32,431 bases of DNA from Thermomicrobiales bacterium. Lineage in GTDB: Bacteria > Chloroflexota > Chloroflexia > Thermomicrobiales > CFX8. Shown in pieces: positions 395 through 27,263 of this stretch (its first letter is position 1; each line of letters begins with the position of its first letter). The position numbers and the translations under genes were made by a program. Location: positions 1 through 32,431 of the forward strand of contig JAMLIA010000031.1 in NCBI GenBank assembly GCA_023954495.1. Reading direction: 5' to 3'. The notes under the pieces were generated by a model. The model was not told the DNA's origin. It made no database searches and saw only the letters and a list, made by a program, of their open reading frames with translations.

Positions 395-658
395 CTACGG
401 GAATGCCTCAGCTCGGCTGACTGTTCGGCGTTCGAGCGAATCGAAGATCAGCGCAGCCTGTGCTGCCGATACGTGCTCACTTTGCACATGCCACCACCAG
501 CCGCTGCATTCACATTCCAGAAAGTACTTGCCATCTGGCGTCGCGAACAGCCTGACGTTGAGGACTCCGTCGAGGTATGGCTCAACGGTCGAGGCAAGCA
601 TCCTCGGAGTGATGTCTGCGGCTTGAAGCTCTTCCGGTTGATGGCGGCGACTCAGCAT
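395..658 (-). CDS. Small tryptophan-containing hypothetical protein
   Basis: An 87-residue protein of unrecognised family. I chose the ATG at 658 because GGAG lies 8 bases upstream; an in-frame TTG at 706 would add 16 residues but has no such site. The sequence has a helical N-terminus (MLSRRHQPEEL), a region that reads like a two- or three-strand sheet (RLFATPDGKYFLECECSGWWWHV) split by two Cys and three consecutive Trp, and an amphipathic C-terminal helix (SAAQAALIFDSLE). There is no signal peptide. It follows the CARDB gene after 120 bp that hold a hairpin, so it may or may not be co-transcribed. The ordered hydrophobic pattern suggests a real folded protein, but no function can be given. 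Confidence 0.55.
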   Translation of the reverse strand: MLSRRHQPEELQAADITPRMLASTVEPYLDGVLNVRLFATPDGKYFLECECSGWWWHVQSEHVSAAQAALIFDSLERRTVSRAEAFP

Positions 659-731
659 GGCGGGTCTCCGATTCTCTGAGATCGTCGTTTGCGTACGTTG
701 CGTCAAGTCGCGGTGGAGATTGGAGATGTGC

Positions 732-756
732 GAGACACCGCAGACTGCGGTGCCTC
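732..756 (-). terminator. Hairpin downstream of the CARDB gene, possible terminator
   Basis: A 7-bp perfect stem (CACCGCA at 736-742, TGCGGTG at 746-752) with a 3-base loop is extended by three more pairs beyond one mismatch. It lies about 22 bases after the stop codon of the CARDB gene on the minus strand. There is no clear T-run after it, so it could be a weak terminator or a 3' stabilising stem. Confidence 0.4.
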
Positions 757-778
757 ACACAGATGAGGTCACGAGACC

Positions 779-3121
779 CTATGACTCCGGCAGTTGCGCA
801 GCGTTCATGAATTCGTCGAGTACCGTCTGCGAATCAAGCGGGAGCGAGAACGTAGACGACATTGACATCATCGACGCAGGCACATTGGACGACAGAACCG
901 TGACTGTGAAGTTAGCCGTGAAGCACGATTCGCCGCAGCCCGATTCACCCTCCTGGCCAGGAATCGAGATCGATCCCAGGGTCAGGTAGTCTGGCGGGAA
1001 GGAGATCTGGAACGCGAAGCCCATAATCTCACCCGGCAGCGGGATTCCGACGACGTCGTCATCTTCGTAGGCACCGAAGGCGAAGATCAACGGCGTGAAC
1101 TCTTCGAGGGTGACGTCGAGGTAGTTGTCACTACCGAACGTCAACGTGTCGCCGTCTTCGACCGCGTCGTTACTGTAGATCCGGCAGGTGACGCCCTGAA
1201 TCGTCTCGCCCGCGAAGTTGCACGACGCGGTGGGGTTCAGCAAGGCGAAGATCATCGGGTCCCATTCGGCGTTCCCGTCGATGCCGTCTTCTCCGGCGTG
1301 TGACACGTTCACCGAGTCGAGCGTGACCCGCAGCGTTGTCTGTTGCGGTACGACTGTGACGGACTTGTCGGACGTGTTGTTCGCTTCAGCTCCGGCCCCC
1401 GGCTCGATAACCATTTCGTAGACATCCACGATGGCCCGACTGTTGAATGTTCCAGCCACGTAGTAGGTGCCATCGAAGGTCAGCGTTCGCGATTCGCCCG
1501 GGTTCAGTCCGTTGACGAACTGGACCGGTCCGAAGTCATCGCTGTCCGACAGCAGCCACTGGACGGCGAAGTCGTTCGCCGGGAACGGCCCGTTGTTCTT
1601 GACTGTGATCGTCGCCGTGGCTTCAATGCCGCGCACTGGCTGTGCGGGGCTGATGTTGAAGCTGGTGATGACCAGATCGATCGGAGCCGGCTTCACCGTC
1701 ACATTCAGGATCAGCAGGTTGTTCGACTCGTTCGATTCAGCGATGTTGCTGAATGCATCGACCTGTGCCAACCCGCGGAAGTTTCCGGCAAGCGGATACG
1801 TGACCTGGAAGTTGACAGTCGTCGACGCGCCAGCACCCAGGCCGAACACCTGCTTGCTGACTGTCTGCATGCCCGGCGTGTAGAGGAAGAACGAATCCGG
1901 GTTGAACTCAACCATGAAGTTGCCGGCAGGCGTGTTGCCCTGGTTCTTCACGGTGATATTGACCGATGCGTTCTGGCCCTGTGTCGGCGAGGACGGTGTG
2001 ATCGACATGCTCGTGATCACGAGGTCGATCTTGTTCTGGCCGACTGGTACCTGCACCGGCAGGACATTGTTATTGTCGTTGACCTCCCAGACGGAGTTGG
2101 TGCTGTCAACAGTGACCCAGCCATCGAACGATCCGGCCCATGGATAGACGTACTTGAACGTCACATTGGTTGATGCGTTCTCGGCAAGGCTATTCACCTG
2201 CACTGTGATCGGTGAGGTCAACCACCATGGCTGCCATGCGACGCGGAATGGTCCGGCGTTCGCATGTCCCTGATTGGTCACCGTGACCGTTGCGGTCGCG
2301 ATCTGACCAGCAACCGGCGATGCAGGACTGATGGCGAAGTTGTCAACGATCAGATCCGGAAGCGGCGGATCAACAAGCACGGACTTGGTGAGCGTGTTGT
2401 TGAACTCGTCCGTCTCAAAGACCCAACCACCTGAATCAACCGTCGCCCAACCGTCAAACGTCGCTGCCCACCAGAAGGTGTAATCGAACGTGACGGTCGT
2501 TGTTGCGCCTGCGCCGAGCGCGTCAACTTGCGTCGTCAGCGGCGTTTCAAACAGCCACGGCGTCCACTGCACCTGGAAGGGCCCCGAGGCAGTGTTGCCG
2601 TTATTCGCAACCGTAATCGACACGGTCGTCACACGCGTGGCGACTGGAAGCGATGGTGCGAAGGTGATGCTGGTCACTTGCAGGTCGATCGTCGCAGCGA
2701 GGACCGTCACCGGCAGGATTTCCAGATTGTTGACTTCGTTTGTCTCATTGACGGCGAAGCCCGTGTCCAGGTTGACAACGGTCAGGAAGTTGCCTGCGTT
2801 CGGGAACGCGTACTGCAACTGAACATCGACCGTTGCGCCGGCAGCGATACCATCGACGGTTGTCGATGGTCCTGCGGGTGCGAACTGATCGGATTGCCAT
2901 TGCACTACGAAATCCTGCGACGCGCAGGTCCCACCGTTGTGAACGGAGATATGGACCGTCGCAGGCTGATTCTGGATTGGTTCGTACGGGTCGGTAGACA
3001 TCGCCGTGATTGAGAGGTCTGCGCACGGCGTGGGTGCAGCTGCCGCTGGTGTGATCGCCATCATCGATAGCGTCAGCAGCAACATGACGACTGCGAGTCG
3101 TCGGACAAGAGCAGTGTGCAT
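779..3121 (-). CDS. Secreted CARDB-repeat adhesin-like protein
   Basis: A 780-residue exported protein. The start is the ATG at 3121, preceded by GAAGGGG; an upstream in-frame start would bury the signal peptide. Residues 1-29 form a Sec signal (RR followed by a Met/Leu-rich core and the cleavage-like ending ITPAAAA). Five tandem Ig-like CARDB domains of about 115 residues follow, at roughly 35-145, 149-260, 264-375, 383-500 and 505-615. Each begins with a DLxI/VT-type strand and carries the signature T(V/I)xxx(V/N)xNxG. The last ~165 residues are different, acidic, with four Cys (two in GCGESC), and match nothing I recognise. CARDB domains in bacterial surface proteins usually act as spacers or adhesion modules. 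The gene has its own promoter at 3284-3312. A role in displaying or organising the cell surface is inferred; no anchor motif is visible. Confidence 0.85.
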   Translation of the reverse strand: MHTALVRRLAVVMLLLTLSMMAITPAAAAPTPCADLSITAMSTDPYEPIQNQPATVHISVHNGGTCASQDFVVQWQSDQFAPAGPSTTVDGIAAGATVDVQLQYAFPNAGNFLTVVNLDTGFAVNETNEVNNLEILPVTVLAATIDLQVTSITFAPSLPVATRVTTVSITVANNGNTASGPFQVQWTPWLFETPLTTQVDALGAGATTTVTFDYTFWWAATFDGWATVDSGGWVFETDEFNNTLTKSVLVDPPLPDLIVDNFAISPASPVAGQIATATVTVTNQGHANAGPFRVAWQPWWLTSPITVQVNSLAENASTNVTFKYVYPWAGSFDGWVTVDSTNSVWEVNDNNNVLPVQVPVGQNKIDLVITSMSITPSSPTQGQNASVNITVKNQGNTPAGNFMVEFNPDSFFLYTPGMQTVSKQVFGLGAGASTTVNFQVTYPLAGNFRGLAQVDAFSNIAESNESNNLLILNVTVKPAPIDLVITSFNISPAQPVRGIEATATITVKNNGPFPANDFAVQWLLSDSDDFGPVQFVNGLNPGESRTLTFDGTYYVAGTFNSRAIVDVYEMVIEPGAGAEANNTSDKSVTVVPQQTTLRVTLDSVNVSHAGEDGIDGNAEWDPMIFALLNPTASCNFAGETIQGVTCRIYSNDAVEDGDTLTFGSDNYLDVTLEEFTPLIFAFGAYEDDDVVGIPLPGEIMGFAFQISFPPDYLTLGSISIPGQEGESGCGESCFTANFTVTVLSSNVPASMMSMSSTFSLPLDSQTVLDEFMNAAQLPES

Positions 3122-3283
3122 CAGCCCTACCCCTTCATCTCGGGCATCCGCACGGAAAACACACAGACCTGACCGGCGGATACCACCGAGCAACCACTAC
3201 AAGAACGAGGACAACAACGTAGGCGCATTCGGTGCAACTTCACCGGTCACGCTCGCGCGACTCAATTCGTTACCGACGCTTCC

Positions 3284-3384: not shown

Positions 3385-4740
3385 CTATGTCGACAGGTGA
3401 CCTGCTGTCGACCCATGCGATGCAACGAGCTTCGTGGCATCTAAGCACTGCTCGGGCGTTCCCAGTGCCCGGGTCTGGTCCGCGAACAGACGCAAAAAAC
3501 GTGCTGCTGCTGCAGCATCGAAGAGAGCATGTCGATAGCGGATTGATATGTGGAGGCGGTCTTTCCAGCGGACGATGCCGATTCCCAGGCCGGGAGGCAT
3601 CGAGGCCGGCGTCGAACCCCAAAGCTCAACAACGTCCCCTGCGGAGCCAAACTCCTCGAATCCGCGCAACCGACCCACATTTGATATCAGCGCCGCTGCT
3701 TCTCGGCGGCGACGAAATGGACGCCGGGTGAAGATGAAAATCAGGAGCGGGTCGAATTGCCGAACCCAGTCGGGTCGCGACTTGAACGCAGCGGCCGCGT
3801 GGGTGCGCATGTGGCGGGTCTGCTGCGTCGTCGTCGCGAGCAATGCATGTCGGTCGGCGCGCTGATCGGCGGTGGTCACGATGACGCCGTGCCCGACGAC
3901 GTTTGCCACCACTTCGTGCATCCACTCTGGCGGTCGCAAGCTGATCGGCGTCAACACGATGAGCTTGCCGGTGCTGCCACCGTGCAAGCGATTCCACTCG
4001 TCAATCGTCAGGTGCAGCGCTGCCAGCAGAATGTCATTGACCGTCACTCGGTGTTCGAGGCCGTCGTAGTCGTGGAGGTCAATGTCATCCAGCTCAATTG
4101 CCTCGTAACACATCCCGTAGCCGGGTTCGTCATGGGCACCGTTCGATAGGACGAGCGAAGGGATATCACGGGTCCGCGGTGGGCTTGCGGATGAGTCCGA
4201 GTCGAGTTCAGACGGATCCCCGTCCGTTCTGAGGATGCGCGCATCAATCGGATCTACATCCGGAATCGGGTCGGACTGATCCGCATAGGCGCGCACGATG
4301 GAGCGCAGGAACCGGATGCCGCCCATGCCGTCGGCCATGGCGTGATGCCAGATATACAGGAGCGAGTCGCCGCCAACGCGTCGCACGATCAGCAGCCGGA
4401 CGGCAGGAGGGCGCTCCAGATCAATCAGCTCGCTGGTGAATTCGCCTCGCAAGCGTTGCATGTCGTCTTCACCATCCGCTTCGGCAACGCGAATGACGTG
4501 CGAGATGTCGAGGCTCCCGGATTCCTGTACTTCCCACATTGGTGGGCTCAGCCGACGACGCCTGGCAACGCGGGCCGCCCGAGCCATCGGGTGGATCCCC
4601 GTCGCTCTGACCACGGCGTCACGCAAGCGATCCTCGTCGATAGTTCCGGACACCCGCAGCTCAATGCAGGCATTCTGCGGCTGCGACGGACGATTGCCAA
4701 AGGCGAGGATCTCTTCAGTCACAATGAACGGAAACCGCAT
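3385..4740 (-). CDS. HHxxxDG acyltransferase (PapA / WS-DGAT-like)
   Basis: A 451-residue acyltransferase of the condensation-domain superfamily. The start is the ATG at 4740, which has GGAG 8 bases upstream; the reading frame stays open further upstream without a better site. The catalytic motif is HHAMADG at residues 132-138, in the context YIWHHAMADGMGG. TVNDILLAAL, PISLRP and SNVGR further on correspond to segments that follow the active site in wax-ester synthase/DGAT and PapA-type enzymes. Such enzymes move an acyl group from CoA or an ACP to an alcohol; the mycobacterial PapA enzymes esterify polyketide lipids. There is no membrane span, so it should act in the cytoplasm or on the inner face. 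In this cluster it is a candidate for esterifying a hydroxyl of the lipid or sugar, or for releasing the chain by transesterification. The exact subfamily is uncertain. Confidence 0.75.
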   Translation of the reverse strand: MRFPFIVTEEILAFGNRPSQPQNACIELRVSGTIDEDRLRDAVVRATGIHPMARAARVARRRRLSPPMWEVQESGSLDISHVIRVAEADGEDDMQRLRGEFTSELIDLERPPAVRLLIVRRVGGDSLLYIWHHAMADGMGGIRFLRSIVRAYADQSDPIPDVDPIDARILRTDGDPSELDSDSSASPPRTRDIPSLVLSNGAHDEPGYGMCYEAIELDDIDLHDYDGLEHRVTVNDILLAALHLTIDEWNRLHGGSTGKLIVLTPISLRPPEWMHEVVANVVGHGVIVTTADQRADRHALLATTTQQTRHMRTHAAAAFKSRPDWVRQFDPLLIFIFTRRPFRRRREAAALISNVGRLRGFEEFGSAGDVVELWGSTPASMPPGLGIGIVRWKDRLHISIRYRHALFDAAAAARFLRLFADQTRALGTPEQCLDATKLVASHGSTAGHLST

Positions 4741-4809
4741 GGAACAAGCTCCAGACTGCGGTGATCCAGGTCGTCCGTCACACGAACGACGAGCGATGAA
4801 TGCGGGTGT

Positions 4810-4847
4810 CATTGGGGGCGGCCCAGCTTGCCGGACCGTCCCCAATG
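4810..4847 (-). terminator. Strong stem-loop just after the propeller gene
   Basis: CATTGGGG (4810-4817) pairs with CCCCAATG (4840-4847), and the stem continues inward through a G-T pair, CGG/CCG, one mismatch and CC/GG. It begins only a few bases after the stop codon of the minus-strand propeller gene (4853). There is no T-run after it, so it is either an imperfect intrinsic terminator or a 3' end that protects the message. Confidence 0.55.
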
Positions 4848-4852
4848 CCGAG

Positions 4853-7045
4853 TTAGCGGCAGGCGTCGCTGCCGTAGGTGACGTGGCGTCCGAGGCGCAT
4901 CACCTGGTCGCCGAGATCCTCTCGGGTCGTCTGCGATGCCACGACGCCACCGTCGCTTGTCGACGAGTAGATCTGGTTCTGCAGCGTGTCGAATGCCTTA
5001 GCGGCAACGCTGCAATACCCGTTCGATGTCGCCCACTCCGCGCGCGTCAGCAGCTTCGTCATTTGTGCCTGACCACCTGCCACCAGGTCACCACGCCCGG
5101 CGGCCTGTGCGACGCTGGACTGCACCGCGCTGAAGGTAATCCCTTCCATCGCCGCGTCGGATGATGCGGAGTTGGATGGTGCCGAGGCGTCGCCGGATGC
5201 TGCCTTGGCGACGACCTGATAGACATACTCGGTGTCAGCAGACGCGGTTGTGTCAGTAAAGAACAGGTCAGTCGTTGTGCCGATCGTGGTGTATTCGCCG
5301 AGAACGTCGATCGGATTGGCGGTGTCATTGGTGTCGACGATAGGCGGCGGGAATTCAGGAACGAATCCGCGATCCCCCGCTATCGACCGACCGAACTCGA
5401 TGCCAGGTGTCGACGTGTAGGTCGCCCGCTTGATGGTGTATTCCGTCGCGCCGTCGACAGCGTCCCACGACAACAGCATGCCGTCGGGCTGCTGCTCGGT
5501 CACGAGGCGGCCAGGTGCGTCGAGCGGACCATCGACAGTTGCCGATTGGCCAGGACGGGAGCCACGGTTCGGCTGCCACGGACCTGGATATCGGCAGTTC
5601 TGATTCGGATTCCCCTCCCAGACAGCCGTGCCCTGGGCATGGTTGGCACTGCCGATGAACATGCCGTTCGGCGTTTCCTCCATTGTTCGCGCGCCGAAGT
5701 TGTAGAGGCCGTCGCCAAATGCGTTCATCGTCGTCATGCTCCAGTACTGACCGTCGCAGCTGGAGTAGACGTCAAAGCCGAACTGAGGCTGGAGCAAGAA
5801 ATTGACGAACGGGACCGTGCGCATCGCCCAGCTCCAGTCGTTCGTCCCGAGATACAGGGAGCCGCGCAGGTCTTCCATGCGCCAGAAGTGGGCGTTGAAC
5901 ATGTTCCCGTAGCCGTCGCCCAGTCCGCTGATTGGGAACAGCCACGAACCGTTTTGCGCCTGACGGACGTTGCCAACGACAAGCTGCCAGGAATCGTCAG
6001 CTGCGATGCGGATCAGCTCGGAGCCGGGGAAGATGGTCGAATACCAGCCACTGGAGCCAACATATAGTCGATCACGATACACGTGCATCGCCACGACAGA
6101 CGTGATCTCAGTCCCACGACCAGCACCGTTAGTCACAACCGGAGTGAAGTTGAACTGCGAGCCCTGTGGGCCGAGCGACGCCTTCCAGACGCCGTACCCA
6201 TCGGTCGACGATCCAGTGCCAAGGTAGAGCTTATTGTCGAATGACTCAGTTTCGAAAATGCTGAAGTTGTTCGGGCTGACCTGAACAACGGACGGCGACC
6301 CGCCCAGCGGGTCGATCACTTCGACAACTGCGCCGTCACCAACATAGCTCTGGCTGGCAGTGGCAAAGACGCGATTGTTGATGACAGTGAGGCCGCGGAA
6401 TCCGATGACATCGTACTCGCCGTACGAGGTGTTGATCTTGCCCGCGACAGCGCCTGTATCAGTGAAGGTGGTTCCGTCGGTCGTCTTCAGGATGCGCGCG
6501 GGTGCAGTTGCCACCAGTTCCGGGATGTATTCCGCGGCTGTCACGCCACTGATGAGCAACGTCTCGTTACCGGATCCGTCGGTCATCACCGCCATGCCGC
6601 GGTAGCCGATGTCGCGACCAATCTGCTTGCCGGGTGCGCGCGGATTCTCTACCGTCGGGGACTCATACACGCGCTCCCACGCCCCGGTTCCCGGCGTGTA
6701 GCGCCAGATTTCCGCGCGCAGATCGAGATCGTACTTGTCCGCTGTGCAGTTCAGATCTTCCGCAGGTTTGGCTGAATAGAGTCCAAATCCGGGATAGTAA
6801 TAGTCGAGCAACGCGTTTTCGACACAGAGCGGGTTGGCGGCGGTGCCGATATAGAGCCGCCCCTTGAACCATGCCATCGACCAAGAGTATGAGTTCTTGG
6901 TGTTGCCCATCCCGCCAGTCGAAATCTCGCTGACGCCGCTGACAGCAGCCAGGCTGGTGAACACCTGTACCATCGACAGCGTCACCAGCAACGCCACGGT
7001 TCCAACAATGCGCTTGCGAGTTGTCAGTCGCCGCCGTGCCTTCAC
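4853..7045 (-). CDS. Secreted beta-propeller protein with FnIII-like domain
   Basis: A 730-residue exported protein of unassigned function. I chose the GTG at 7045 because GGGAGGAC sits directly before it. Residues 1-37 are a signal or anchor: a basic stretch (KARRRLTTRKR), then a hydrophobic core. Residues ~45-500 contain repeated strand blades of the type 'RLYIGT', 'KLYLGTGS', 'RLYVGSSG', 'SLYLGTNDWSW', 'GMFIGSANH', which are typical of a 6- or 7-bladed propeller. A fibronectin III-like domain follows at ~510-640 (LLSWDAVDGATEYTIKR to YVYQVVAKAASG). The last ~85 residues are helical and could be a FIMAH-like module, a tentative match by pattern only. Isolated Cys residues are spread through the protein. 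It follows the glycosyltransferase after 44 bp and is closed by a strong hairpin, so it probably belongs to the cluster. Confidence 0.8.
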   Translation of the reverse strand: MKARRRLTTRKRIVGTVALLVTLSMVQVFTSLAAVSGVSEISTGGMGNTKNSYSWSMAWFKGRLYIGTAANPLCVENALLDYYYPGFGLYSAKPAEDLNCTADKYDLDLRAEIWRYTPGTGAWERVYESPTVENPRAPGKQIGRDIGYRGMAVMTDGSGNETLLISGVTAAEYIPELVATAPARILKTTDGTTFTDTGAVAGKINTSYGEYDVIGFRGLTVINNRVFATASQSYVGDGAVVEVIDPLGGSPSVVQVSPNNFSIFETESFDNKLYLGTGSSTDGYGVWKASLGPQGSQFNFTPVVTNGAGRGTEITSVVAMHVYRDRLYVGSSGWYSTIFPGSELIRIAADDSWQLVVGNVRQAQNGSWLFPISGLGDGYGNMFNAHFWRMEDLRGSLYLGTNDWSWAMRTVPFVNFLLQPQFGFDVYSSCDGQYWSMTTMNAFGDGLYNFGARTMEETPNGMFIGSANHAQGTAVWEGNPNQNCRYPGPWQPNRGSRPGQSATVDGPLDAPGRLVTEQQPDGMLLSWDAVDGATEYTIKRATYTSTPGIEFGRSIAGDRGFVPEFPPPIVDTNDTANPIDVLGEYTTIGTTTDLFFTDTTASADTEYVYQVVAKAASGDASAPSNSASSDAAMEGITFSAVQSSVAQAAGRGDLVAGGQAQMTKLLTRAEWATSNGYCSVAAKAFDTLQNQIYSSTSDGGVVASQTTREDLGDQVMRLGRHVTYGSDACR

Positions 7046-7089
7046 TTGTCCTCCCAACCGATCGTTCAAAAACTGATGATCCTTCTGTT

Positions 7090-8385
7090 CTAATGTGATG
7101 TTGCGACTGGCTGCACCAGACGCTCAATGAGCTGGGCTGCACGTGGCGGCCCCGGTGCGTCGGCCAGGTGCTGGGCAATTCGACGTGCGTTGGCGGTGTA
7201 GCGCCCGTCCGAGAGCACGTCCTCGACCGCCGCGCGAAGTCCAGCCGGCGTACATTTGCGCGGCGATAGCTGCACACCTGCGCCGGCTTCAACTACACGA
7301 CGGGCGTTATCTGGCTTGTCCCAGGTCGTCGGGACAATGACCATCGGAACGCCTGCTTTCATCGCGGCCATGACAGTGCCATTGCCGCCCGTTGTTACGA
7401 TCGCCGCACAACGCGGTAGCAGCGTATCGTGGTTGACCCAATCGACGAAGTGTAGGTTCGGCGCGAGACTGCTCTCCATTTGTACGTCGCGCTCACGTCC
7501 GGCCGTCAGAATCACTTGCATCGGGCGACCCGCCAGGCCCTCAAGCGCCGAGCGCAGGACGAACGGGTCCTGGAAATGCGACGTGCCTTCCGTCACGTGC
7601 ACCCACGGCGAATCAACGGGAATCTCGTTCAGCCAGTTAGCCTCGTCCGCCAGGTGTGGCGGGAACCAGGTACATGCGCCGACGTACTGGACTGACTCAG
7701 GCAGGTCATGACGCTCGAAGTCGAGCTCGCGTACGTTGCCAATGATGTACAGCGGCAGCCGACCCTGGAACTCACTGACCGAGCACCCCATCGGCGCTAG
7801 CCCGTGCTGCGATCGGAAGAAATCCACTCGTCGCCGCAAGCCGGTAGCGGCGATGTCGACTGCGCCGGTCAGCATCCGGGCGACGACGCGCGACCCGGTC
7901 GACTTTGGCGGGGCCATGCCGAAGCCCCACGGCGGCGCGTCCGGTCCGGGGATCATCGAACCCAGCAAGGACACGAGCGCAACCGGGATCGGCGCAGCTT
8001 CCCAGAGGATGAGAATCGGCCCCCACATGTTCATGTCGGTGACGATTACATCCGGTTGCCAGTCATCCTGAATCTTCTGGATATCAGCGACCTGGCCGGG
8101 GATCGTCTCGACCAGCCAGTTGCGAAATGCTTGATGACCCACACGGGCTGACTGACGTCGCCCGCCGACAGACTGCTCCATCGCGTGGATACGCTGGTAG
8201 CTCTCCGGCTTCACCGCCTGAAACGGGTAGAAGCGAAAATCTTCAGACTCCACCAACTCGCGAGCACTCTCGGCAGTGTAGACGGCGACTTCGCAGCCGC
8301 GATCTCGCAACGCGTGCGCAATGCTCATTTGGGGGAAGACATGACCGGGGAAGGGCCAGCATGTCACTAGCACACGAGTACTCAT
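7090..8385 (-). CDS. Family 1 glycosyltransferase (MGT/UGT type), copy B
   Basis: A 431-residue GT-B fold glycosyltransferase. The start is the ATG at 8385, which aligns with the start of the neighbouring paralogue. The N-terminal acceptor domain opens with VLVTCWPFPGHVFPQMSIA, the usual GT1 strand-turn. The C-terminal donor domain has HFVDWVNHDTLLPRC, the TTGGNGTVMAA loop and VPTTWDKPDNARRVVEAG around Trp355, where nucleotide-sugar binding residues lie. Family members transfer a sugar from an activated donor to lipids, macrolides or polyketides, and mycobacterial phenolic glycolipid loci use related enzymes. No membrane span is seen. The gene lies 234 bp after copy A. In that gap a weak promoter (TTGCGG, 18-base spacer, TATATG on the minus strand) is possible. 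Its acceptor is presumably the cluster's lipid, possibly the second sugar step. Confidence 0.88.
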   Translation of the reverse strand: MSTRVLVTCWPFPGHVFPQMSIAHALRDRGCEVAVYTAESARELVESEDFRFYPFQAVKPESYQRIHAMEQSVGGRRQSARVGHQAFRNWLVETIPGQVADIQKIQDDWQPDVIVTDMNMWGPILILWEAAPIPVALVSLLGSMIPGPDAPPWGFGMAPPKSTGSRVVARMLTGAVDIAATGLRRRVDFFRSQHGLAPMGCSVSEFQGRLPLYIIGNVRELDFERHDLPESVQYVGACTWFPPHLADEANWLNEIPVDSPWVHVTEGTSHFQDPFVLRSALEGLAGRPMQVILTAGRERDVQMESSLAPNLHFVDWVNHDTLLPRCAAIVTTGGNGTVMAAMKAGVPMVIVPTTWDKPDNARRVVEAGAGVQLSPRKCTPAGLRAAVEDVLSDGRYTANARRIAQHLADAPGPPRAAQLIERLVQPVATSH

Positions 8386-8619
8386 GGCAACAATGGCCCC
8401 GTTCCAGTTACGACGAGAGTACGGCTCACTGGGGCTGGCTGTTGAACGAGTTGACGTCCACATGATGTCAAGCACCGCGAAGCGCAATGCACCCATCTAT
8501 GAGATTGATACCTCTTCATATAGCGCACCTAACGGCGGTTCCGCAAGATGTGACTTCGGTGTCACGTCGCCAATGACGATCTTGTAATTTGCTTCGGACG
8601 TATCGAAACCAGCCACGTG

Positions 8620-9927: not shown

Positions 9928-9985
9928 CAGCAAGCCTCCCAACTCGCGCACGCAGCAGTTCGATTGGCGGCCGCGGCTACGCCTC

Positions 9986-13367: not shown

Positions 13368-13372
13368 TGCGC

Positions 13373-13675
13373 TCACTCCCTCGCCGAAACTGGCTGGCGA
13401 TGGTCGCTGACGTAATTCACCAGCTCGCCGACCGTCACATCGCGCTCTTCGACCGGGCGCTGTCCGATTTCGGCCAGAAACTCTGCGAACGGCAGCTGGC
13501 CATAGCGCTGCTGAATCATCGTGCCGAGGATGACGAGATCGAGTGATTCGAGCCCCATGTCGGTCAGGAACAGCGTCTGTTCAGAAACCGGGCCGGAATA
13601 CTCCCAATCGTCGGCCATCTCGTTGATCAGTTCGAGCACCGCGGCAAGAACTTCCGGATCGGCATTGCGCGTCAC
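13373..13675 (-). CDS. Discrete acyl carrier protein
   Basis: A 100-residue carrier protein. The start is the GTG at 13675, preceded by AAGGAG with 6 bases between. The phosphopantetheine site is Ser44 in DMGLESLDLV, a GLxSL form of the usual DSL motif. The preceding helix (VLAAVLELINEMADDW) and the acidic loop and helix II (VILGTMIQQRYG) fit an ACP fold. Carrier proteins hold the growing acyl chain as a thioester after modification by a PPTase, which here is encoded by the gene directly upstream. Because the KS-AT and DH-PPTase products carry no ACP domain of their own, this protein is their probable partner. It is overlapped or abutted by the phosphodiesterase start, suggesting translational coupling. 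Confidence 0.88.
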   Translation of the reverse strand: MTRNADPEVLAAVLELINEMADDWEYSGPVSEQTLFLTDMGLESLDLVILGTMIQQRYGQLPFAEFLAEIGQRPVEERDVTVGELVNYVSDHRQPVSARE

Positions 13676-13731
13676 TATGATCTCCTTAGAGGTAGATACG
13701 AACCATGGACTGAACCGGGCGACGCCAGCGA

Positions 13732-18794: not shown

Positions 18795-18842
18795 GTAACC
18801 TCCATGGCGAATATTCATCAGGGGCGTGGGTCAATTCAGCAT

Positions 18843-21800
18843 TCATCTTGGATTACCTACGACGCGATTGAGTGATCGTGATCCTGTTCCTGCCATGCCG
18901 GTAATGGCGATTGCGACCGCCCCGTCACTGCTATAGAGGAAGTGATCTGCCTGGCAGAGTGGCAACTTGATGTCGGCATGAATCAGCACTTCATGCTGGA
19001 GCGTCCAGTTATCCGACGCGTCGCGGGCCCGCGCGAAACGCTCAATCCGCTGCATGGTGTTCGGCAGGAGGGTCACGTCTACGGACATCCGTAACCAGAC
19101 CAATTGCATCTGCAGAGCGCTATCAACAATCGACGGATCGAATAGCCAGTCACCGTTGGCGCTGGGCAGGAACCGGTCAAGATCGACCGGCTCGAGCGTA
19201 GCTCGCGCTCCGTACTGACTCGTGCCATCAATTCCGGCGATTCCCTGGAACAACGGCCCGTGAAACAGGTACGTATCGTAGGCGAATCTCGGTGTGATCT
19301 CAGTCGGCGACAGCCCAGACAGCCGCGCAGGCGCAACGGGCGGCGTCGCCAACTCTTCGAGCTCGACCGTCGCGCGATAGTGAACGCGCGGCGTCGGCCC
19401 CGCAGCAACGATCCGCACATCAACCGCGACCCCATCGCGGCTCGACTGGCCGCTCTGCTCGGCAACAACATGCACGCTTACCGGCGACGGAACCGAGATA
19501 CCGCTGAGCAGTTGCATGTCACGCACGGCCCGAACAGGGAGTGTTGGGAATACCAATGACGCAGTTTCGGCCATCAGCTCCAGTGCAACGGCGAAAGGCA
19601 CGATCGGTGTGCCGTCAATCTGATGGTCGAGCAAGTAGCGATCGATTGTCGGATCGAACGTTCGCCCAACGATCACGCCGCTGTTCGAGCGCGACTCGAT
19701 CGTCGCATTGACGGAGATCAGAGGCAGGTCGCTAGCAATAAGCGGCGAAGATTCAGGCTGCGACTTCGCCTGCGGGAAGGCCATCGGATCGCTTTTCCCG
19801 ACGCCACCGACCGGCGCGCTGGCGCCGCCGATGACGATCTCGACCTCGCCCTTGCGACCAAATTGCAGTTCCTCGATCAGCAGACGACAACCAACCGGCA
19901 GCGGTATGAGCTCGATGCCACGTTCGGCGAACTGCTGTCGAACAGCATCGGAGACCATGCCCGTCTTCAGCCATGGGCCCCAGTTGATCGACACGACGTG
20001 TGCGGCCCACTGACGATCCAGGTGCTGCGCCAGCTTGTTCAACACTTCGCTCGCGGCAGCATAGTCTGCCTGCCCGCGATTGCCAAAGCGCCCCGAAACG
20101 GAGGAGAAGAACACCAGGAATCGCAGCGATTCCGGCTGCAGCAAGGTCGCCAGCGTCAGCGCGCTATCGGCTTTTGTCGTGACGACACGTCCGAACGAGG
20201 CGAGCTGCTTGTCGCGAATCAGCTTGTCCTCAATGATGCCTGCGCCGTGGATTGCGCCGTCGATCCGACCGTGACGCCGATAGACATCTTCGATGAGCGC
20301 GCGGAACGCGTCAGCGTCACGGACATCGCAGGCGTGATATTCGACCTGCGAACCGGACGCGCGCAACCTGTCGATCGTTGCCTGTACTTCGCGGCGACTC
20401 AGCAGGTCGCGAACTTCACGCTCGACCATCACTGGCGTCACGTTCTCGCCGCCCGCTCGATGCCGCTGCACCAGGGCGATCTTGAGGGCGGCTGCATCTT
20501 GTATGGCCGCCGTCTCCGGGTCCTCGGACTCCAGCGGCGTTCGACCTACCAGTATGAGTGTTGGTTGCCACAGCTCCGCGAGCCATGCCGCCGACTCGGC
20601 TGTGATCCCTCGCGCGCCACCAGTAATGAGGACGACCGCGCCTCGATCAAGCGCAAACGGCTCTGCTGCCTCATCAACCGGATGCTCAGCGATACCAAGC
20701 CCAACACGCTCGTCACCGCGGTAGCCGACTTCAGCGTGCGCGTCGATGCTCCAGAACTCGTCGGCGATGCGCTGAGCCGCGACACGCGAATCACACGGCC
20801 CGACATCTACAGCCTTCGCTCGCAGTTCCGGGAAGTCCTGCGGCACCGTCTTGACAAAGCCCGCCAGCGCTCCGCTCGCAATCGAGCGAGCGCCAGCAGC
20901 GCTTCCAACGGCAAAATCACCGCCAAGGTCAACGACACTCATGATCGCATTGCAGCCGGACGCCGACTCAATCAGGTCCGGCGCAAAGCGCTGCGTCGCG
21001 AGAAACAGCCATGAGAGTTGTCGATCCAGGTCGTGCTGCAAAGACACAGCGTCCAGGTCGTCTGATGAATCGCTCTGGGCGACAGACGCCAGATGGATGA
21101 GCGCGCCCACCGGGCCATGCTGACGACGAACGGTATCGAGGACTGTAGCGACGTCGCCTTCACTCGGGGACGGAACTTGCCGCGTGTCGATGCGCGCAGT
21201 TCGAATCCCGCCGGCTTCCAGAATCGTCGCGAGGTGGTGTCCGATCTCAGCGCCGTCGTCGATCAGGACGACAACGCCATTGACCTCGCGAGCGCCGGTG
21301 CGGTCTGCCGGCTCAATCGGGAAGCATGTCACGCTGAACCGACCGATCCGCGCGCCGGCCGGTTCAAACTCAAAAGGGAGACGCTCCTCCGTTCCACGAT
21401 TGGCCTCTTCAGTGCCTCCCGCGAGTATTGCCTGTAACGCGTCGGCAATCTGGTTGAGCGTCTTACTACTCGTCACTTGCTCGACGTCCGGCGTCACGCC
21501 GTCCGGAATTGGCAACGACTGCATCATCGTGCCGGCGATCTCAACGCGCTTGATGGAATCGATTCCCAGATCGGCTTCCAGGTCAGCGTCGAGGCCGAGC
21601 ATGTCAGGCGGGTACCCGGTGCGATCGCTGACGACCCCCAGCAACATCGCCATCAGCGCGTCGCGATCGAGCGCACGCGCGGCGGCCGCCGGCGGAGCGA
21701 CGACCGGTGCAGGCGCTGCTGCTTGGGCCACCGGCTCCGGAGTTGGCACTGGCGGTGCGACGGGTTGTGGCGGTGGCGGTGCCGGTTGGACTTGTGGTTG

Positions 21801-24800
21801 CGGCACTCTGGCCACTGGTGGGCTGCTCACTTGTGGGGCAGGTTGCGGAGGAGCTGGCGCATGACCATTCCCGTTGCCATTGCTGGCAGTCGGCGGTCGC
21901 AGCTCGTGAACGGCGGGCCGCGAAATACTGCCAGTCGTATCAACAACGCGCTGCTCGGCACTCGGGCGATACGCGCCGAGATAGGCGAGCATCACTGAGC
22001 GCTGCGTCTCCAGAAACTGCTGCATCACCTGCTGATGGCGATTCATCACGTCGCTCACACGGTCGCCGCCGTGTGCAGCGGGCGACGGCTGTTGTGCGTA
22101 CATCAGTGGCATTGACTGCGGCGAGGACTGCTCTGCCGCGTCCGGTTCTTGTGGAACTACATGATTGTGTATCTGTGCAGTCACTGCAACGCTCCCTTCC
22201 TGCATCGGGACTGATTCTTGAGGAGTCGCATGACCTTCCAATCCGGCTGGTGCGGCCGATACGTCAGCATGTGACGTCGATCTTCCATTGACAGAGGCAG
22301 CGACATGACCTTCGCGATGGACAGTGACCTTCAGCGGCGCTTGCTTCCCTGCTCCACGCAATGGCGCGCCGATCGGTCGCGCGCCGCCGCCGTTGACCAG
22401 CCAGGTCGATGAGGTATAGACAGGGGTATCCTGGCCAGCGTCGAGTGCGCTCATCGAAAGCCGCTTCGCGTTACGCCCAGTGAACAGCCGGTCAAGCTGC
22501 ACCGGTGCGCCCTCAGTCACGAGCGCGGCGAGCGTATGAAGCAACTGCAGCATTGCCGGTCGGCCCGACTGATCCATCGACAAGGCGACGTGCGGACGTT
22601 CAGCGAGAATGCTGCCGATCAGGCCAGTCAGCACACTCTTCGGACCGACCTCGACGAAGATGCGTGCACCGGCGCTGTGCATGGCTTCAACCTCACGCAC
22701 CCACTCCACCGGGTGCGTCAGGTGTCGGCTGAGCAGGTCGGCAATGTCCGCTGCGTCCTGCGGGTACTGCTCGCCGGTGGTGTTCGAGTACACCGGTATG
22801 CGTGGCGTGGCAATCGGCGTCTGCGCCAGCATCTCGGCGAGCCGCTTCTGCGCGGGTGCGACATAGGACGAGTGGAACGCGCACGCAACCGGCAAGCGTC
22901 GCGCGCGCAGGCCGTGCTCGTCGCACCAGGCAATCGCACGGTCGATCGACGCCTCGCCACCAGAGATGACGGTCTGCTTCGGCGAGTTGAGGTTAGCCAG
23001 GGTGATGTCAGAATCGTCGAGCAGCGGAAGCAACGCCTCACGCGGCGCGTCGATCGCGGCCATCGTTCCCGTTTCGCCGACTGCGCCCTCGACCATGAAC
23101 CGACCGCGTGCCTCCGAAAGGCGCAGCATGTCGTCAGAGCTGATGCTCCCAGCAGCGGTCAGCGCAACGAACTCGCCGTAACTGTGTCCCGCAACCATTG
23201 CCGGTTCTACTCCGAATCTGCCGAGCAAATGGTTGTAGGCCAGATTCGTTGCACCGAGGGCCGGCTGAGCGATGTTCGTTTCGGTCAGTGCAGCCCGCTG
23301 GACCTTCTCGTCGTCCGGTGTGAATGTCGGTGGCGGGAAGATATAGCGGCTCAGCGGCTGCTGCAGCAGTCCATCCAATACTGCATCAGCATGATCGAAC
23401 TGTTGGAGCACTCCGGGGAACGCAACGGCTAGATCGCGGCCCATGTTGACGTACTGCGACCCCTGGCCGGGGAACACGAACGCGATGGAACCCTCGCGCG
23501 CCATCCCCTCCTCGGCGAAGTGGATCCCATTTGGCAGGTGCTGGCGCTCGATGTCGGCGGTCAGCACATCACGCGCCGACCGGAGCTTCGTCGCCAGATC
23601 ATCGAGCGTCGCGGCGACGATCACGAGCACAGGTCCGTCGCTCAGCGGTTCCTCCAGACTGAGCGTGTATGCCAGATCCGTTAGCGACGGCTGGGCACCA
23701 ACCTCCAGCTGACCGAGCACACTCTCGATTGCCATCATGAGTTCGGACCGCGAATGCCCACGCCAGACCAGAATCTCAGCCGGGATGTTCCCGACAATTG
23801 ACGGGGTCTCTTCGAGATAGGCGTTGGCGTACTCTTCCAGCGTCAAGTGGAAGTTTGTGCCGCCGAATCCGAATGCACTCACACCGGCCCGTCGCTGCGG
23901 GATCGATGGGTTGCGCAGCCACGGTCGCGGCTCGCTATTGACGTACAGCGGGCCGTCAGGGAATCCAGCACGCGGACTTGGCCGCGTAACACCGAGTGTC
24001 GGTGGGAGTACATGATGATGGAGCGCCAGCGCAGCCTTCATTAACCCGGCGACTCCGGCGGCTGCCTTCGTATGGCCGATCATCGACTTCACAGAACCGA
24101 TCGCGGCAGATTGCGTCGTCGCACCAGCTCGGTTCAACACGGTCGAAAGCGATTGCGCCTCCGCCTGATCGCCGGCGACCGTGCCGGTGCCGTGGGCTTC
24201 GAACAGCTCGACGGTGGCTGGTGAGTAGCCGGCCTGCTGATAGGCTCGATCCAGCGCGCGCATTTGCCCCTCGGGTCGCGGCGCGGTCATGCTGCGATCG
24301 CGTCCATCGCTGGCAGCCCCGGCTCCCTGGATGACCGCGTAGATGCGGTCTCCGTCGCGCTCGGCATCGTCCAGCCGCTTCAGCACTAGCGCCGCGAACC
24401 CTTCGGCGATGGCGATACCGTCTGCCTCCGCGTCGAACGGTCGGCAGCGACCTGTCGCCGACAGCGCCTGCGTCTTGGAGAAACACAAGAAGGCGAACGG
24501 ATTCTGAATGGCGTCAACACCACCGACGACCGCCATGTCACTCACGCCCGATTGCAGATCTCGGATCGCCAGATAGACGGCTGCAAGAGACGACGCACAG
24601 GCGGCATCGACGGTAAAGTTCGCGCCGCCGAAATCGAACCGATTCGCGACGCGACCGGAAGCAACATTCATCAGCAAACCGGGAAAGCTATCTTCGGTCC
24701 ACTCCGGCATCAGGCCATCTGCAAGCTCGTTGATCTCCCACGCCGCATCGCCGACAACGAGCGGCAGTGTCGAGCGCAACATGTATCCGGCAGTGAGGTC

Positions 24801-27263
24801 CGATCCGCCGCCGCCAGCGCCAAGCATGACCGACGTGCGCTCGCGATTAAAAGGCCGCTTCTCATAGCCTGCGTCGCGAAGCGCGGCCCTGACGACCAGC
24901 AAGCCAAGTAGCTGGAACGGCTCGATCGACTCAATCGACTTCGGCGGCATGCCGAACTCGACCGGGTCGAAGGGGATGTCATCGATAAACCCACCCCAGC
25001 GCGAGTAGATCTTGTCGGGAACCGAGCGATCCGGATCGAAATACTGCCGCCAATCCCAGCGCTCAGCCGGGATCTCAGTCACCGCGTCGACCTTGCCCAG
25101 GATGTTCTTCCAGAACGTCTCGGTGTCGGCGGCACCGGGGAAGATGCTCCCCATACCCACAATGGCGATCTGGGCCGGTTCAGGTGTCGGCTCCGGGTTG
25201 GCGTCTTCGATCGCGAGGTCGGCCAACGTCCGGGATGATCCGATGGAGATTCCCGCGTGCAGGTCTGCCATCGACATGACCTGTTGGTGCAGCGCAGCCA
25301 CCTGACCGATCATGTACATTCCGCGCGACCATTGGTCGTCTGGTGCAACATCGATCAGCTTCTTTTCGGCAGCGTCCTTCCCGAACGCCGGATTGCGGTC
25401 GACACCCTTGGACGCGATCCGCAGGCGGCCAATGTTGAACTCTTCAAGGCGATTGCGGATCTCGTCACTCGACGTATTGGCACGGATGAGATCGAGCTTC
25501 TCTGTGCGGAAATCATCGACAAACGGGGACGGGAGGCAGCGGGTGGAATGGCCGGGCCCACTCTCCAGCAGCACCGTCTCATTGCAATCCTGCGCGGCAC
25601 TCTGGAAGCCAGCGGTGATCGCACCTGATGTCACGGCCTCGGACGTGAACAGGTAGGCGGTACCAACCAGCACGCCAATCCGGACGCCGCGCTCAGCCAG
25701 CGGCGCTGCCAGAGCAGCGACCATCGCTGCCGATCGTGCATCGTGAATGCCGCCGGCAAACAACACGTGAAACTCGGCAGCGTCGACCGAGCGAGTCAGG
25801 TTCGCGAGCAGCGCACTGACCATCGTCTCCCAAAGCACGAAACTCGTGCGTGGGCCAACGTGACCGCCGCACTCGCGCCCTTCGAAGACGAATCGCCGCG
25901 CGCCATCCTTTATATAGAGGCCCAATAAGCCGGGGGAAGGGACGTGGAGGTAGGTGGCGATGCCATCAGCCTCAAGCGCCAATGCCTGATCCGGACGCCC
26001 GCCGGCGATCAGCGCGAACGGCGGACGATAGCGCCGGATCACCTCAAGCTGCTCTGCTCGCAGCTCGGCCGGAACGAAGCCGAGGATGCCAACACCCCAC
26101 GACCGTTCGCCCAGCAGCTGCGACGTCTCGTCCAGCAGCGACTCGACTTCCCCTGCCCGCATCAACGCGAGAGCGAGGAACGGCAGCGCTCCGGATTCCG
26201 CGACCGACATGGCGAACTCGGCGCGATCGCTGACGCGCGTCATCGGCCCCTGAACGATCGGGAATCGCGTCCGATGCGACTCCGCCAGCGTTGATGACTC
26301 GCTCAATGGATCCAGACGCTGGGCGGTGCGGCAGTGTGCCGCGGCCTCATCTCGAATAGCGCCGAGGATGCCACCGACGGTATAAAAGCGATCGGCCAGG
26401 CTGGCAGCAAAAGCCGCATCCTGGCCGACGAGAAGGACGTCCGACTGAGGATCACGCCAACCGGCGGCGGCAATGACGCGTTCTGCCCATAAACTCGTAG
26501 GAGGCTCGCTGGTCGCGAGCGTCAGATCACGCTCCTGCTGGCGCAATTCATCAACTGCAGCAACGCCTGGTCGCGAATAGACGCGCACCGGCTGACCCAG
26601 GTCAGCGCCGAGAACCGTCGTTTCGCTGCCATCCATCCGGCGCAGAATCGTTCTGGCTGCCTCCGGCAACGGCGACTCGCGTGCCAGCAGCACCTGGCTA
26701 TCTAGCACGAATCCGGCTGCGCCCGCGACGGCACACGCAGCACCCGTGTGCAGCCCGATGCCACCCCAGGCCCACACCGGGACATCGACGCGAGCGATCA
26801 AGCGCTGGAGCAGCACGAACGTGCTCTCCTCACCGATCCAGCCGCCGCTCTCATGCCCCTTGGCAAGGACAGCGTTGGCACCAGCCTCCACGCCAATGCG
26901 CGCGATCTGTTCGTTCGGAGCAACAACGTAGACGTCTCGGCCGAGCGAACGAGCTGCGGAAGTTAGCGATGCAATCGCGTCATCGCCTTGACCGGAGATA
27001 CAGACAGTAGTAGTCTTTTCTGACAGTAGTGACAGAATTGAACGACTGAAGTCCAGCGTTTCAGCACTGAGCAGAACGCCGAGGCGTCCACGTCCATGTG
27101 TTGAAAGCTTGTTCAGGGCGGCTCGACTATTTGGAAGGTCGCTAGTGAACTCAAGACTCAGTATGCCAATGGCTCCGGCACGACTTGCTGCAATGGCAAG
27201 CGTCGGGTCAGGGAGACCGGACGGCGATACAACGAGACTGTCGAGAACGAAGCGAGAATGCAC
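18843..27263 (-). CDS. Giant iterative synthase: NMO-NMO-KS-AT-ACP-KR-DH
   Basis: A 2806-residue megasynthase, started by the GTG at 27263 with AGAGGA 8 bases upstream. Two FMN-barrel (nitronate monooxygenase/PfaD-like enoylreductase) domains come first. One covers ~1-270 with KGHESGGWIG (His137), the other ~325-640 with GRECGGHVGPR (His468). A KS follows at ~699-1135 (Cys889 in DAACASSL, EAHGTGT, VKSMIGHTKAAAG), then an AT at ~1255-1560 (Ser1361 in GHSYGE, AFHSSY). A Pro/Ala-rich linker leads to a single ACP at ~1865-1945 (Ser1903 in LGIDSIKRVEI, the PUFA-synthase signature). The KR is at ~2205-2480 (TGGARGIT, Tyr2401) and the DH at ~2530-2800 (His2547 in HxxxGxxxxP, Asp2714 in DSALQ). All catalytic residues needed for full beta-carbon reduction appear present. 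There is no thioesterase or terminal reductase. It heads the operon and is inferred to build a long alkyl or hydroxyalkyl chain from malonyl units. Confidence 0.93.
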   Translation of the reverse strand: MHSRFVLDSLVVSPSGLPDPTLAIAASRAGAIGILSLEFTSDLPNSRAALNKLSTHGRGRLGVLLSAETLDFSRSILSLLSEKTTTVCISGQGDDAIASLTSAARSLGRDVYVVAPNEQIARIGVEAGANAVLAKGHESGGWIGEESTFVLLQRLIARVDVPVWAWGGIGLHTGAACAVAGAAGFVLDSQVLLARESPLPEAARTILRRMDGSETTVLGADLGQPVRVYSRPGVAAVDELRQQERDLTLATSEPPTSLWAERVIAAAGWRDPQSDVLLVGQDAAFAASLADRFYTVGGILGAIRDEAAAHCRTAQRLDPLSESSTLAESHRTRFPIVQGPMTRVSDRAEFAMSVAESGALPFLALALMRAGEVESLLDETSQLLGERSWGVGILGFVPAELRAEQLEVIRRYRPPFALIAGGRPDQALALEADGIATYLHVPSPGLLGLYIKDGARRFVFEGRECGGHVGPRTSFVLWETMVSALLANLTRSVDAAEFHVLFAGGIHDARSAAMVAALAAPLAERGVRIGVLVGTAYLFTSEAVTSGAITAGFQSAAQDCNETVLLESGPGHSTRCLPSPFVDDFRTEKLDLIRANTSSDEIRNRLEEFNIGRLRIASKGVDRNPAFGKDAAEKKLIDVAPDDQWSRGMYMIGQVAALHQQVMSMADLHAGISIGSSRTLADLAIEDANPEPTPEPAQIAIVGMGSIFPGAADTETFWKNILGKVDAVTEIPAERWDWRQYFDPDRSVPDKIYSRWGGFIDDIPFDPVEFGMPPKSIESIEPFQLLGLLVVRAALRDAGYEKRPFNRERTSVMLGAGGGGSDLTAGYMLRSTLPLVVGDAAWEINELADGLMPEWTEDSFPGLLMNVASGRVANRFDFGGANFTVDAACASSLAAVYLAIRDLQSGVSDMAVVGGVDAIQNPFAFLCFSKTQALSATGRCRPFDAEADGIAIAEGFAALVLKRLDDAERDGDRIYAVIQGAGAASDGRDRSMTAPRPEGQMRALDRAYQQAGYSPATVELFEAHGTGTVAGDQAEAQSLSTVLNRAGATTQSAAIGSVKSMIGHTKAAAGVAGLMKAALALHHHVLPPTLGVTRPSPRAGFPDGPLYVNSEPRPWLRNPSIPQRRAGVSAFGFGGTNFHLTLEEYANAYLEETPSIVGNIPAEILVWRGHSRSELMMAIESVLGQLEVGAQPSLTDLAYTLSLEEPLSDGPVLVIVAATLDDLATKLRSARDVLTADIERQHLPNGIHFAEEGMAREGSIAFVFPGQGSQYVNMGRDLAVAFPGVLQQFDHADAVLDGLLQQPLSRYIFPPPTFTPDDEKVQRAALTETNIAQPALGATNLAYNHLLGRFGVEPAMVAGHSYGEFVALTAAGSISSDDMLRLSEARGRFMVEGAVGETGTMAAIDAPREALLPLLDDSDITLANLNSPKQTVISGGEASIDRAIAWCDEHGLRARRLPVACAFHSSYVAPAQKRLAEMLAQTPIATPRIPVYSNTTGEQYPQDAADIADLLSRHLTHPVEWVREVEAMHSAGARIFVEVGPKSVLTGLIGSILAERPHVALSMDQSGRPAMLQLLHTLAALVTEGAPVQLDRLFTGRNAKRLSMSALDAGQDTPVYTSSTWLVNGGGARPIGAPLRGAGKQAPLKVTVHREGHVAASVNGRSTSHADVSAAPAGLEGHATPQESVPMQEGSVAVTAQIHNHVVPQEPDAAEQSSPQSMPLMYAQQPSPAAHGGDRVSDVMNRHQQVMQQFLETQRSVMLAYLGAYRPSAEQRVVDTTGSISRPAVHELRPPTASNGNGNGHAPAPPQPAPQVSSPPVARVPQPQVQPAPPPPQPVAPPVPTPEPVAQAAAPAPVVAPPAAAARALDRDALMAMLLGVVSDRTGYPPDMLGLDADLEADLGIDSIKRVEIAGTMMQSLPIPDGVTPDVEQVTSSKTLNQIADALQAILAGGTEEANRGTEERLPFEFEPAGARIGRFSVTCFPIEPADRTGAREVNGVVVLIDDGAEIGHHLATILEAGGIRTARIDTRQVPSPSEGDVATVLDTVRRQHGPVGALIHLASVAQSDSSDDLDAVSLQHDLDRQLSWLFLATQRFAPDLIESASGCNAIMSVVDLGGDFAVGSAAGARSIASGALAGFVKTVPQDFPELRAKAVDVGPCDSRVAAQRIADEFWSIDAHAEVGYRGDERVGLGIAEHPVDEAAEPFALDRGAVVLITGGARGITAESAAWLAELWQPTLILVGRTPLESEDPETAAIQDAAALKIALVQRHRAGGENVTPVMVEREVRDLLSRREVQATIDRLRASGSQVEYHACDVRDADAFRALIEDVYRRHGRIDGAIHGAGIIEDKLIRDKQLASFGRVVTTKADSALTLATLLQPESLRFLVFFSSVSGRFGNRGQADYAAASEVLNKLAQHLDRQWAAHVVSINWGPWLKTGMVSDAVRQQFAERGIELIPLPVGCRLLIEELQFGRKGEVEIVIGGASAPVGGVGKSDPMAFPQAKSQPESSPLIASDLPLISVNATIESRSNSGVIVGRTFDPTIDRYLLDHQIDGTPIVPFAVALELMAETASLVFPTLPVRAVRDMQLLSGISVPSPVSVHVVAEQSGQSSRDGVAVDVRIVAAGPTPRVHYRATVELEELATPPVAPARLSGLSPTEITPRFAYDTYLFHGPLFQGIAGIDGTSQYGARATLEPVDLDRFLPSANGDWLFDPSIVDSALQMQLVWLRMSVDVTLLPNTMQRIERFARARDASDNWTLQHEVLIHADIKLPLCQADHFLYSSDGAVAIAITGMAGTGSRSLNRVVGNPR

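Follow-up and report, generated by a model that had tools for sequence, protein, structure and literature searches.

Which product does a polyketide cluster of a Thermomicrobiales bacterium make when it joins PUFA-type synthases to glycosyltransferases, a phosphodiesterase and secreted proteins, and does the set match any described system? The reading we favour, and consider rather probable, is a horizontally transferred cluster whose product, a glycosylated lipid with a long chain, is made by an iterative type I PKS of the PUFA-synthase kind and exported from the cell.

Results

The window analysed here is one whole contig (C31, 32,431 nucleotides) of a 3.36 Mb genome that is 96% complete (G000). 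It carries a single tRNA-Leu gene (91–174), and its composition is even along the contig, with no break. Domain calls with Pfam and NCBIfam place the domain-bearing parts named in an earlier note between 779 and 27263 on the minus strand. That note on this DNA had listed a synthase, KS-AT, DH, PPTase, ACP, SDR, hydrolase, phosphodiesterase, GT1 glycosyltransferases and an acyltransferase on one strand; every one of these parts was recovered, and motif reading shows their catalytic motifs to be intact. The extent given then (395–27263) needs correction at both ends: the ORF at 395–706 has no support, and the feature continues past 27263, where a divergently oriented phosphodiesterase, PDE2, keeps its place next to the large synthase SYN in the congener G102, a Herpetosiphonaceae MAG (G051) and Micromonospora as well as in the window. 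The features are listed below with the evidence for each.

779–3193, minus: secreted protein with five CARDB repeats (Pfam, neighbourhoods)
3385–4845, minus: Condensation/WS-DGAT-superfamily acyltransferase, CoA-dependent type, HHAMADG (Pfam/NCBIfam, motif)
4853–7069, minus: secreted seven-bladed beta-propeller with Fn3 and C-terminal helices, confined to genomes that have the cluster (structure prediction, genome searches)
7090–8496, minus: GT1 glycosyltransferase a (Pfam/NCBIfam)
8620–9951, minus: GT1 glycosyltransferase b (Pfam)
9986–11002, minus: SDR reductase, YxxxK (Pfam/NCBIfam); the true start probably lies inside the ORF
10897–11751, minus: alpha/beta hydrolase, GHSYG (Pfam, motif, alignment)
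11772–13376, minus: PDE1, AlkP-superfamily type I phosphodiesterase (Pfam, alignment, genome searches)
13373–13735, minus: discrete ACP, GLESLDL (Pfam E 9.8e-4, just under the gathering score; alignment)
13732–18818, minus: KS-AT-DH-PPTase, one gene in two ORFs, 15921–18818 and 13732–15981 (Pfam, motifs, alignment, single-ORF homologues)
18843–27263, minus: SYN, iterative synthase ER1-ER2-KS-AT-ACP-KR-DH, 2806 aa (Pfam/NCBIfam, motifs)
27646–29034, plus: PDE2, second AlkP-type phosphodiesterase, divergent from the cluster (Pfam/NCBIfam, neighbourhoods)
29224–30441, plus: secreted PD40 (TolB-like) propeller, conserved in G102, with a distant homologue near the Luteitalea locus (Pfam)
30757–32430, plus: ATP sulfurylase-APS kinase (SAT-APSK), running off the contig (Pfam/NCBIfam, neighbourhoods)

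SYN is the seven-domain reducing synthase first described from the letters, and Pfam and NCBIfam confirm its two NMO/FabK-type ER domains, KS, AT, ACP, KR and DH. It scores 1190 bits against TIGR02813 (PfaA; curated cut-off 1010), and its Micromonospora homologue is likewise a single protein (2772 aa). The NMO family (PF03060) matches SYN twice, and the FabK chains 5gvh and 3bo9 match the ER. The protein has one carrier motif (DSIKR) in a single PP-binding stretch, and the catalytic motifs of its KR and DH are intact. The two FabK-type ER domains lie in tandem in one chain (25251–27263); ER1 reads GGW and lacks the histidine of GGH, which ER2 has, and conservation across homologues is far higher in ER2 than in ER1. 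Together with the thraustochytrid enoylreductase ERb-ERc, which works as a heterodimer (PMC13311796), these motifs suggest by analogy a fused enoylreductase duo with one working half. A structure model of the tandem ER was poor (mean pLDDT 56, pTM 0.44).

The second synthase protein carries a PS-DH and an ACPS-type PPTase after its KS-AT. The KS-AT and DH-PPTase had been taken for separate genes; a frameshift near 16,000 divides what is a single gene, since the 1706-aa homologue of the congener aligns with adjoining stretches of two window frames (-3 down to 15999, -2 from 16002) and homologues are mostly single ORFs of about 1540–1990 aa. This single frameshift at 15999–16002 may be an assembly error or a real mutation. 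The G017 and G021 copies are each split in their own way, and the Micromonospora version lacks the PPTase domain. Motifs are intact in both KS, both AT and both DH domains and in the PPTase (WCAKEA). Both KS domains have DAACASS and both His motifs, and the Cys is conserved in homologues; because this active cysteine is present, the KS of the second protein, judged by its sequence, is not a chain-length factor. Lacking both KR and ER, the protein would either borrow those of SYN or add a differently reduced unit. The carrier Ser of the discrete ACP is conserved in 14 homologues.

The order SYN – KS-AT-DH(-PPTase) – ACP – PDE1 – hydrolase – SDR – GT1 (one or two) – propeller recurs, mostly colinearly, in 14 genomes from Chloroflexota, Micromonospora, Isosphaeraceae, one Luteitalea MAG and one unassigned MAG. 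When 84,980 species genomes were scanned with the PDE1 alignment, eight loci came back, every one of them a cluster locus: the congener G102, the Herpetosiphonaceae MAG, an Oscillochloris MAG (G017), Micromonospora qiuiae, M. sonchi, Paludisphaera soli, the Luteitalea MAG and the MAG 'bacterium HOT.CON.50'. Whole-genome searches added a third Micromonospora (3/160 in total). An orthologous PDE1 is present in 5 of 45 genomes of the Paludisphaera family, which we take to be Isosphaeraceae (850–911 bits; next best 320 bits), and among 400 evenly drawn Chloroflexota genomes the window alone reached an orthologue's score (919 bits; next 330). The PDE1 proteins of the clusters form their own cluster-specific clade. 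A link to the long-chain-diol membrane lipids of Thermomicrobium was also considered and is unlikely, the synthases being absent from family- and order-mates.

The core is colinear in the window, in Micromonospora and in all five Isosphaeraceae; the M. qiuiae contig ends within the first GT1. In G102 and G017 the cluster is split over contigs. The G102 genes, about 49–83% identical to those of the window, sit on short contigs whose content is consistent with the window order: SYN to hydrolase on L037 and L038, GT1-GT1-propeller-acyltransferase-CARDB in the same order on L056, and the divergent PDE2-PD40-SAT/APSK on L102. G051 keeps the order with no recognised SDR, two propellers and SYN on another contig. 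The Luteitalea locus is rearranged, its propeller fused to a hydrolase-like domain. HOT.CON.50 has neither SDR nor GT1 within the stretch examined; a core with no GT1 beside it, as in the MAG locus L066 (10 kb examined), speaks against the glycolipid reading. G021 has both synthases and the ACP together with other tailoring genes and no PDE1; there (L041:3921-12002) the synthase pair and ACP are followed by a glycosyltransferase-like gene and two SDRs, possibly a sister cluster type.

Among 158 genomes of the class, the full-length propeller occurs only in G000, G102, G051 and G017, the same four that have a cluster-type PDE1; two more PDE1 matches are 32–39% identical relatives in loci without synthases. 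Such a 4/4 overlap has a chance probability of 4e-8 if the genomes are independent, a figure that kinship makes overstated. Isosphaeraceae gave a nearly held-out test, the search profile having contained only one of the five sequences: of 45 genomes, the five that encode the propeller are precisely those that have an orthologous PDE1. The alpha/beta hydrolase is kept in every PDE1-bearing locus of sufficient length, and from its sequence is a probable chain-release or transfer enzyme. The observed core comprises both synthase proteins, the ACP, PDE1, the hydrolase and the propeller, and the SDR (57–66% identical to its Micromonospora and Isosphaeraceae counterparts) and GT1 are nearly core.

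The two secreted surface-type proteins first reported differ in how they were borne out. One has Pfam-supported CARDB repeats, and its five-repeat homologues adjoin cluster genes in G102, G017 and Micromonospora; the other (4853–7069) has no Pfam match and is predicted to be a beta-propeller with Fn3. The N-termini of both look like signal peptides when read from the sequence. The propeller model (pTM 0.81) finds its best structural matches among seven-bladed propellers, followed by an Fn3-like part and then C-terminal helices. Foldseek and VIA-align return generic propellers (virginiamycin B lyase 2z2o, Z 27.6, rmsd 2.5 Å over 287 residues, 11% identity), and the fold as modelled is too common to name a function.

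Both GT1 proteins are EryCIII/UGT-like, and a second GT1 is also present in G102, G051, Micromonospora and G331. The earlier note had proposed to look for conserved GT1 and acyltransferase neighbours: GT1 genes are kept beside the cluster in Chloroflexota, Actinomycetota, Planctomycetota and Acidobacteriota, and the acyltransferase is found in the window genus only. The acyltransferase matches PF00668 and PF03007 only and scores under the WS_DGAT cut-offs. Its homologues among the 158 class genomes are in two, both of the window genus, plus one weak match; none was found in cluster flanks outside that genus, and a sequence search of the PDB gave nothing useful. We therefore rejected the PapA-like acyltransferase as a core gene. 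G051 has a different one, a PapA_C protein (PF16911).

This distribution bears on a product of the phenolic-glycolipid (PGL) or PDIM kind, a diol esterified by a PapA-like enzyme. Mycobacterial PGL/PDIM loci combine a PKS chain with GT1 glycosylation, O-methylation and PapA-type acylation, and a PKS, GT1, methyltransferases and a Condensation/PapA-type acyltransferase are likewise combined across the clusters studied here. Yet the acyltransferase is neither conserved with the core nor above curated WS/DGAT cut-offs, nor of the PF16911 family, and the modular Pps-type PKSs, FadD or other AMP-ligase and aromatic starter genes of such loci were not found on the contig, so that we hold this alternative to be improbable. 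The envelope lipid first proposed, a long chain with one or two sugars and an ester-linked acyl group, keeps its glycosylated chain in the reading we favour; the acyl ester falls outside the conserved plan and becomes a lineage-specific guess, because acyltransferase homologues are confined to the window genus. Conservation marks out other partners: the phosphodiesterase and the two secreted proteins, propeller and CARDB.

Other lineages add genes of their own. In Isosphaeraceae, Micromonospora G303, G017 and Luteitalea, methyltransferases (FkbM or other) adjoin the GT1s or the propeller. HlyD, an ABC ATPase and a MacB/FtsX permease are directly downstream in Isosphaeraceae, and HlyD/MacB genes are beside SYN in G051; no exporter gene was found on the window contig. 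Heterocyst glycolipids are exported by the same kind of transporter, HlyD with a MacB-type ABC protein (PMC6161253, PMC8277102). In G051 (L039:14974-18866, L045:3-3704) there are also two Sulfotransfer_3 genes, two P450s, the PapA_C acyltransferase and a PHB-esterase, and its product is possibly a sulfated, hydroxylated version.

The GT1 and exporter families also bring in an alternative that we regard as unlikely but substantial, namely a reduced or partly reduced glycosylated polyketide that is diffusible and akin to antibiotics, with the propeller and CARDB proteins serving uptake, self-protection or delivery. The nearest solved chains to GT1 b are CalG1, EspG2 and CalG2, and the GT1s are also close to macrolide glycosyltransferases; that the nearest solved enzymes act on antibiotics (CalG1, EspG2) rather than membrane lipids counts against the lipid reading. 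The sporadic, horizontally moved distribution is typical of specialised metabolites, and MacB-family pumps export antibiotics too (PMC5985334). However, a complete KR-DH-ER set with a PfaA-type KS suggests a fatty chain, Pfam and NCBIfam found no aromatase, cyclase, modular PKS or deoxysugar genes on the contig, and the cluster retains two large secreted proteins of structural type. On the glycolipid reading that we prefer, the conserved GT1 neighbours support a glycosylated product.

PDE1 has D13, T52, D215, H222, D277, H278 and H432, invariant in nine homologues, the residue set expected of an active AlkP-type phosphodiesterase. A sequence search of the PDB with PDE1 returned only NPP and phosphonoacetate hydrolase kin. 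PDE2 has a wider setting: in many Chloroflexia without the PKS cluster a PDE2-type phosphodiesterase adjoins ATP sulfurylase and APS kinase (L069-L085), SAT/APSK being visible beside it in about 11 of 19 such loci examined with short flanks, and in G051 PDE2 sits between the two. SAT-APSK is probably a neighbouring sulfate-activation module and not core. A sulfatase and a PD40 propeller occur at the rearranged Luteitalea locus (L064:15239-18496).

A sulfated, sulfolipid-like glycolipid would fit the SAT-APSK beside the cluster in the window and G102, and the SAT-PDE2-APSK upstream of the G051 cluster with its two internal Sulfotransfer_3 genes. But PDE2 with SAT/APSK is common in Chloroflexia that lack the cluster, SAT/APSK is absent beside the Micromonospora and Isosphaeraceae clusters, and the sulfolipid (Pks2/PapA/Stf) pathway needs a PAPS sulfotransferase, and neither of the two main sulfotransferase families, PF13469 and PF00685, has a match in G000 or G102. 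We consider this alternative very unlikely overall and rejected it for the window genome; it may hold for G051 alone.

The favoured glycolipid cluster has an unusual history. In a tree of both KS-AT paralogues, each of the two joins the window genus to Micromonospora (support 100/98 and 100/99) and sets it apart from G051, G017 and G021; a constraint that unites the Chloroflexota sequences of the second KS-AT is rejected (AU p 1.2e-10). Because the two KS-AT genes share the same odd history, their sequences argue that the cluster moved as a unit between distant bacteria. Plasmid-borne spread was considered and set aside: a PLSDB search gave only 12 distant haloarchaeal AlkP proteins (27–32% identity). 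The Micromonospora G303 cluster (L107:541-1686, L108:8881-20000) adjoins, or is embedded in, an extracellular contractile injection system locus (Pvc16_N PF14065, eCIS_core PF13699), and similar genes flank L062 and L111; this locus may be only a landing site for the cluster.

Discussion

Each component family is known, and we found no described counterpart of the gene set as a whole; literature searches, limited to open-access sources, agree with the earlier note in this, and no characterised close homologue with a different product turned up. Pfa/PUFA synthases share the PfaA-like KS-AT-ACP-KR, FabK-type ER and DH domains and the terminal PPTase, as one survey describes them (PMC3098273). 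Here the window differs in its pfaD-pfaA fusion with tandem ER, its KS-AT-DH-PPTase fusion and discrete ACP, in the single ACP of SYN where PfaA usually has tandem ACPs, and in a second KS-AT with active Cys where a KS-CLF pair is usual. That survey divides secondary lipid synthases into 20 types (A-T), none of which has the window's set as far as its text descriptions go (PMC3098273). Type R of Roseiflexus, likewise a PfaA-type synthase with a PPTase in Chloroflexota, is described there as one KS-MAT-CLF-ACP(3-6)-KR protein plus PPTase, a different architecture that lacks the tailoring genes seen here (PMC3098273).

Among described architectures, the closest is the pfaD-pfaA fusion of Ottowia thiooxydans, with a pfaBC homologue lacking a canonical KS-CLF and one glycosyltransferase; that cluster is joined to PKS-NRPS/NAPAA genes, and PDE1, propeller and CARDB proteins are not described there (PMC13291983). 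The hgl islands follow a common logic of PUFA-related PKS, dedicated glycosyltransferase, DevBCA/MacAB-like export in some lineages and a mobile island (PMC11804610, PMC6161253). Compared by architecture rather than gene by gene, they have a KS-CLF-AT HglC, and PDE1, propeller and CARDB proteins are not described in them (PMC11804610); KS-CLF, like the exporter gene, is absent from the window contig. An enediyne PKSE is a single KS-AT-ACP-KR-DH-PPTase protein with a TEBC thioesterase, whereas the window's domains are on two proteins with tandem ER, and no hotdog thioesterase is among the contig's Pfam matches.

For a glycosylated lipid speak the PfaA-type synthase over its cut-off, the full reducing domains, GT1 neighbours in four phyla, the nearly fixed order, the PDE1-propeller pairing and the concordant trees, and likewise the signal-peptide-like N-termini of propeller and CARDB protein and the exporter and methyltransferase genes of other lineages. 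Gene content, order, motifs, co-occurrence and joint transfer were observed directly, and from them we infer every chemical step of the following pathway as well as its product. The PPTase domain would arm the ACPs (in Micromonospora, a genomic PPTase instead) and the ATs would load malonyl units. SYN would then elongate iteratively with a full KR-DH-ER cycle, ER2 acting as the FMN enoylreductase and ER1 as its structural partner, and the second protein, with active KS-AT and DH, would extend the chain on the discrete ACP by one or more units processed in a different way. PDE1 would act in the cytoplasm on a phosphodiester or pyrophosphate intermediate. The hydrolase may free the chain, the SDR reduce a keto group to a hydroxyl and the GT1 enzyme or enzymes glycosylate it. 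Decoration would fall to methyltransferases in other lineages and to the PapA-like acyltransferase in the window genus, and export to a MacAB/DevBCA-like pump in planctomycetes and perhaps G051. Outside the cell, the beta-propeller and CARDB proteins could handle or anchor the product.

We propose more tentatively, at somewhat less than even confidence, that this is a separate, previously undescribed class of exported glycolipid, marked by a two-protein PUFA-type synthase without chain-length factor, an AlkP phosphodiesterase step, a dedicated propeller and block spread across at least four phyla. Few secondary lipids of PUFA-type synthases have a known structure, and we found none in this lineage. 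Because named strains that grow in culture carry the cluster (Micromonospora qiuiae NBRC 106684, M. sonchi CGMCC 4.7312, Paludisphaera soli JC670), its product is directly testable beyond uncultured Chloroflexota. It is also a clear instance of an envelope-type pathway that has passed intact between phyla. Its constant joining of a lipid-type synthase to a secreted beta-propeller and a cytoplasmic AlkP phosphodiesterase suggests that the lipid is handled outside the cell and made by way of a phospho-intermediate.
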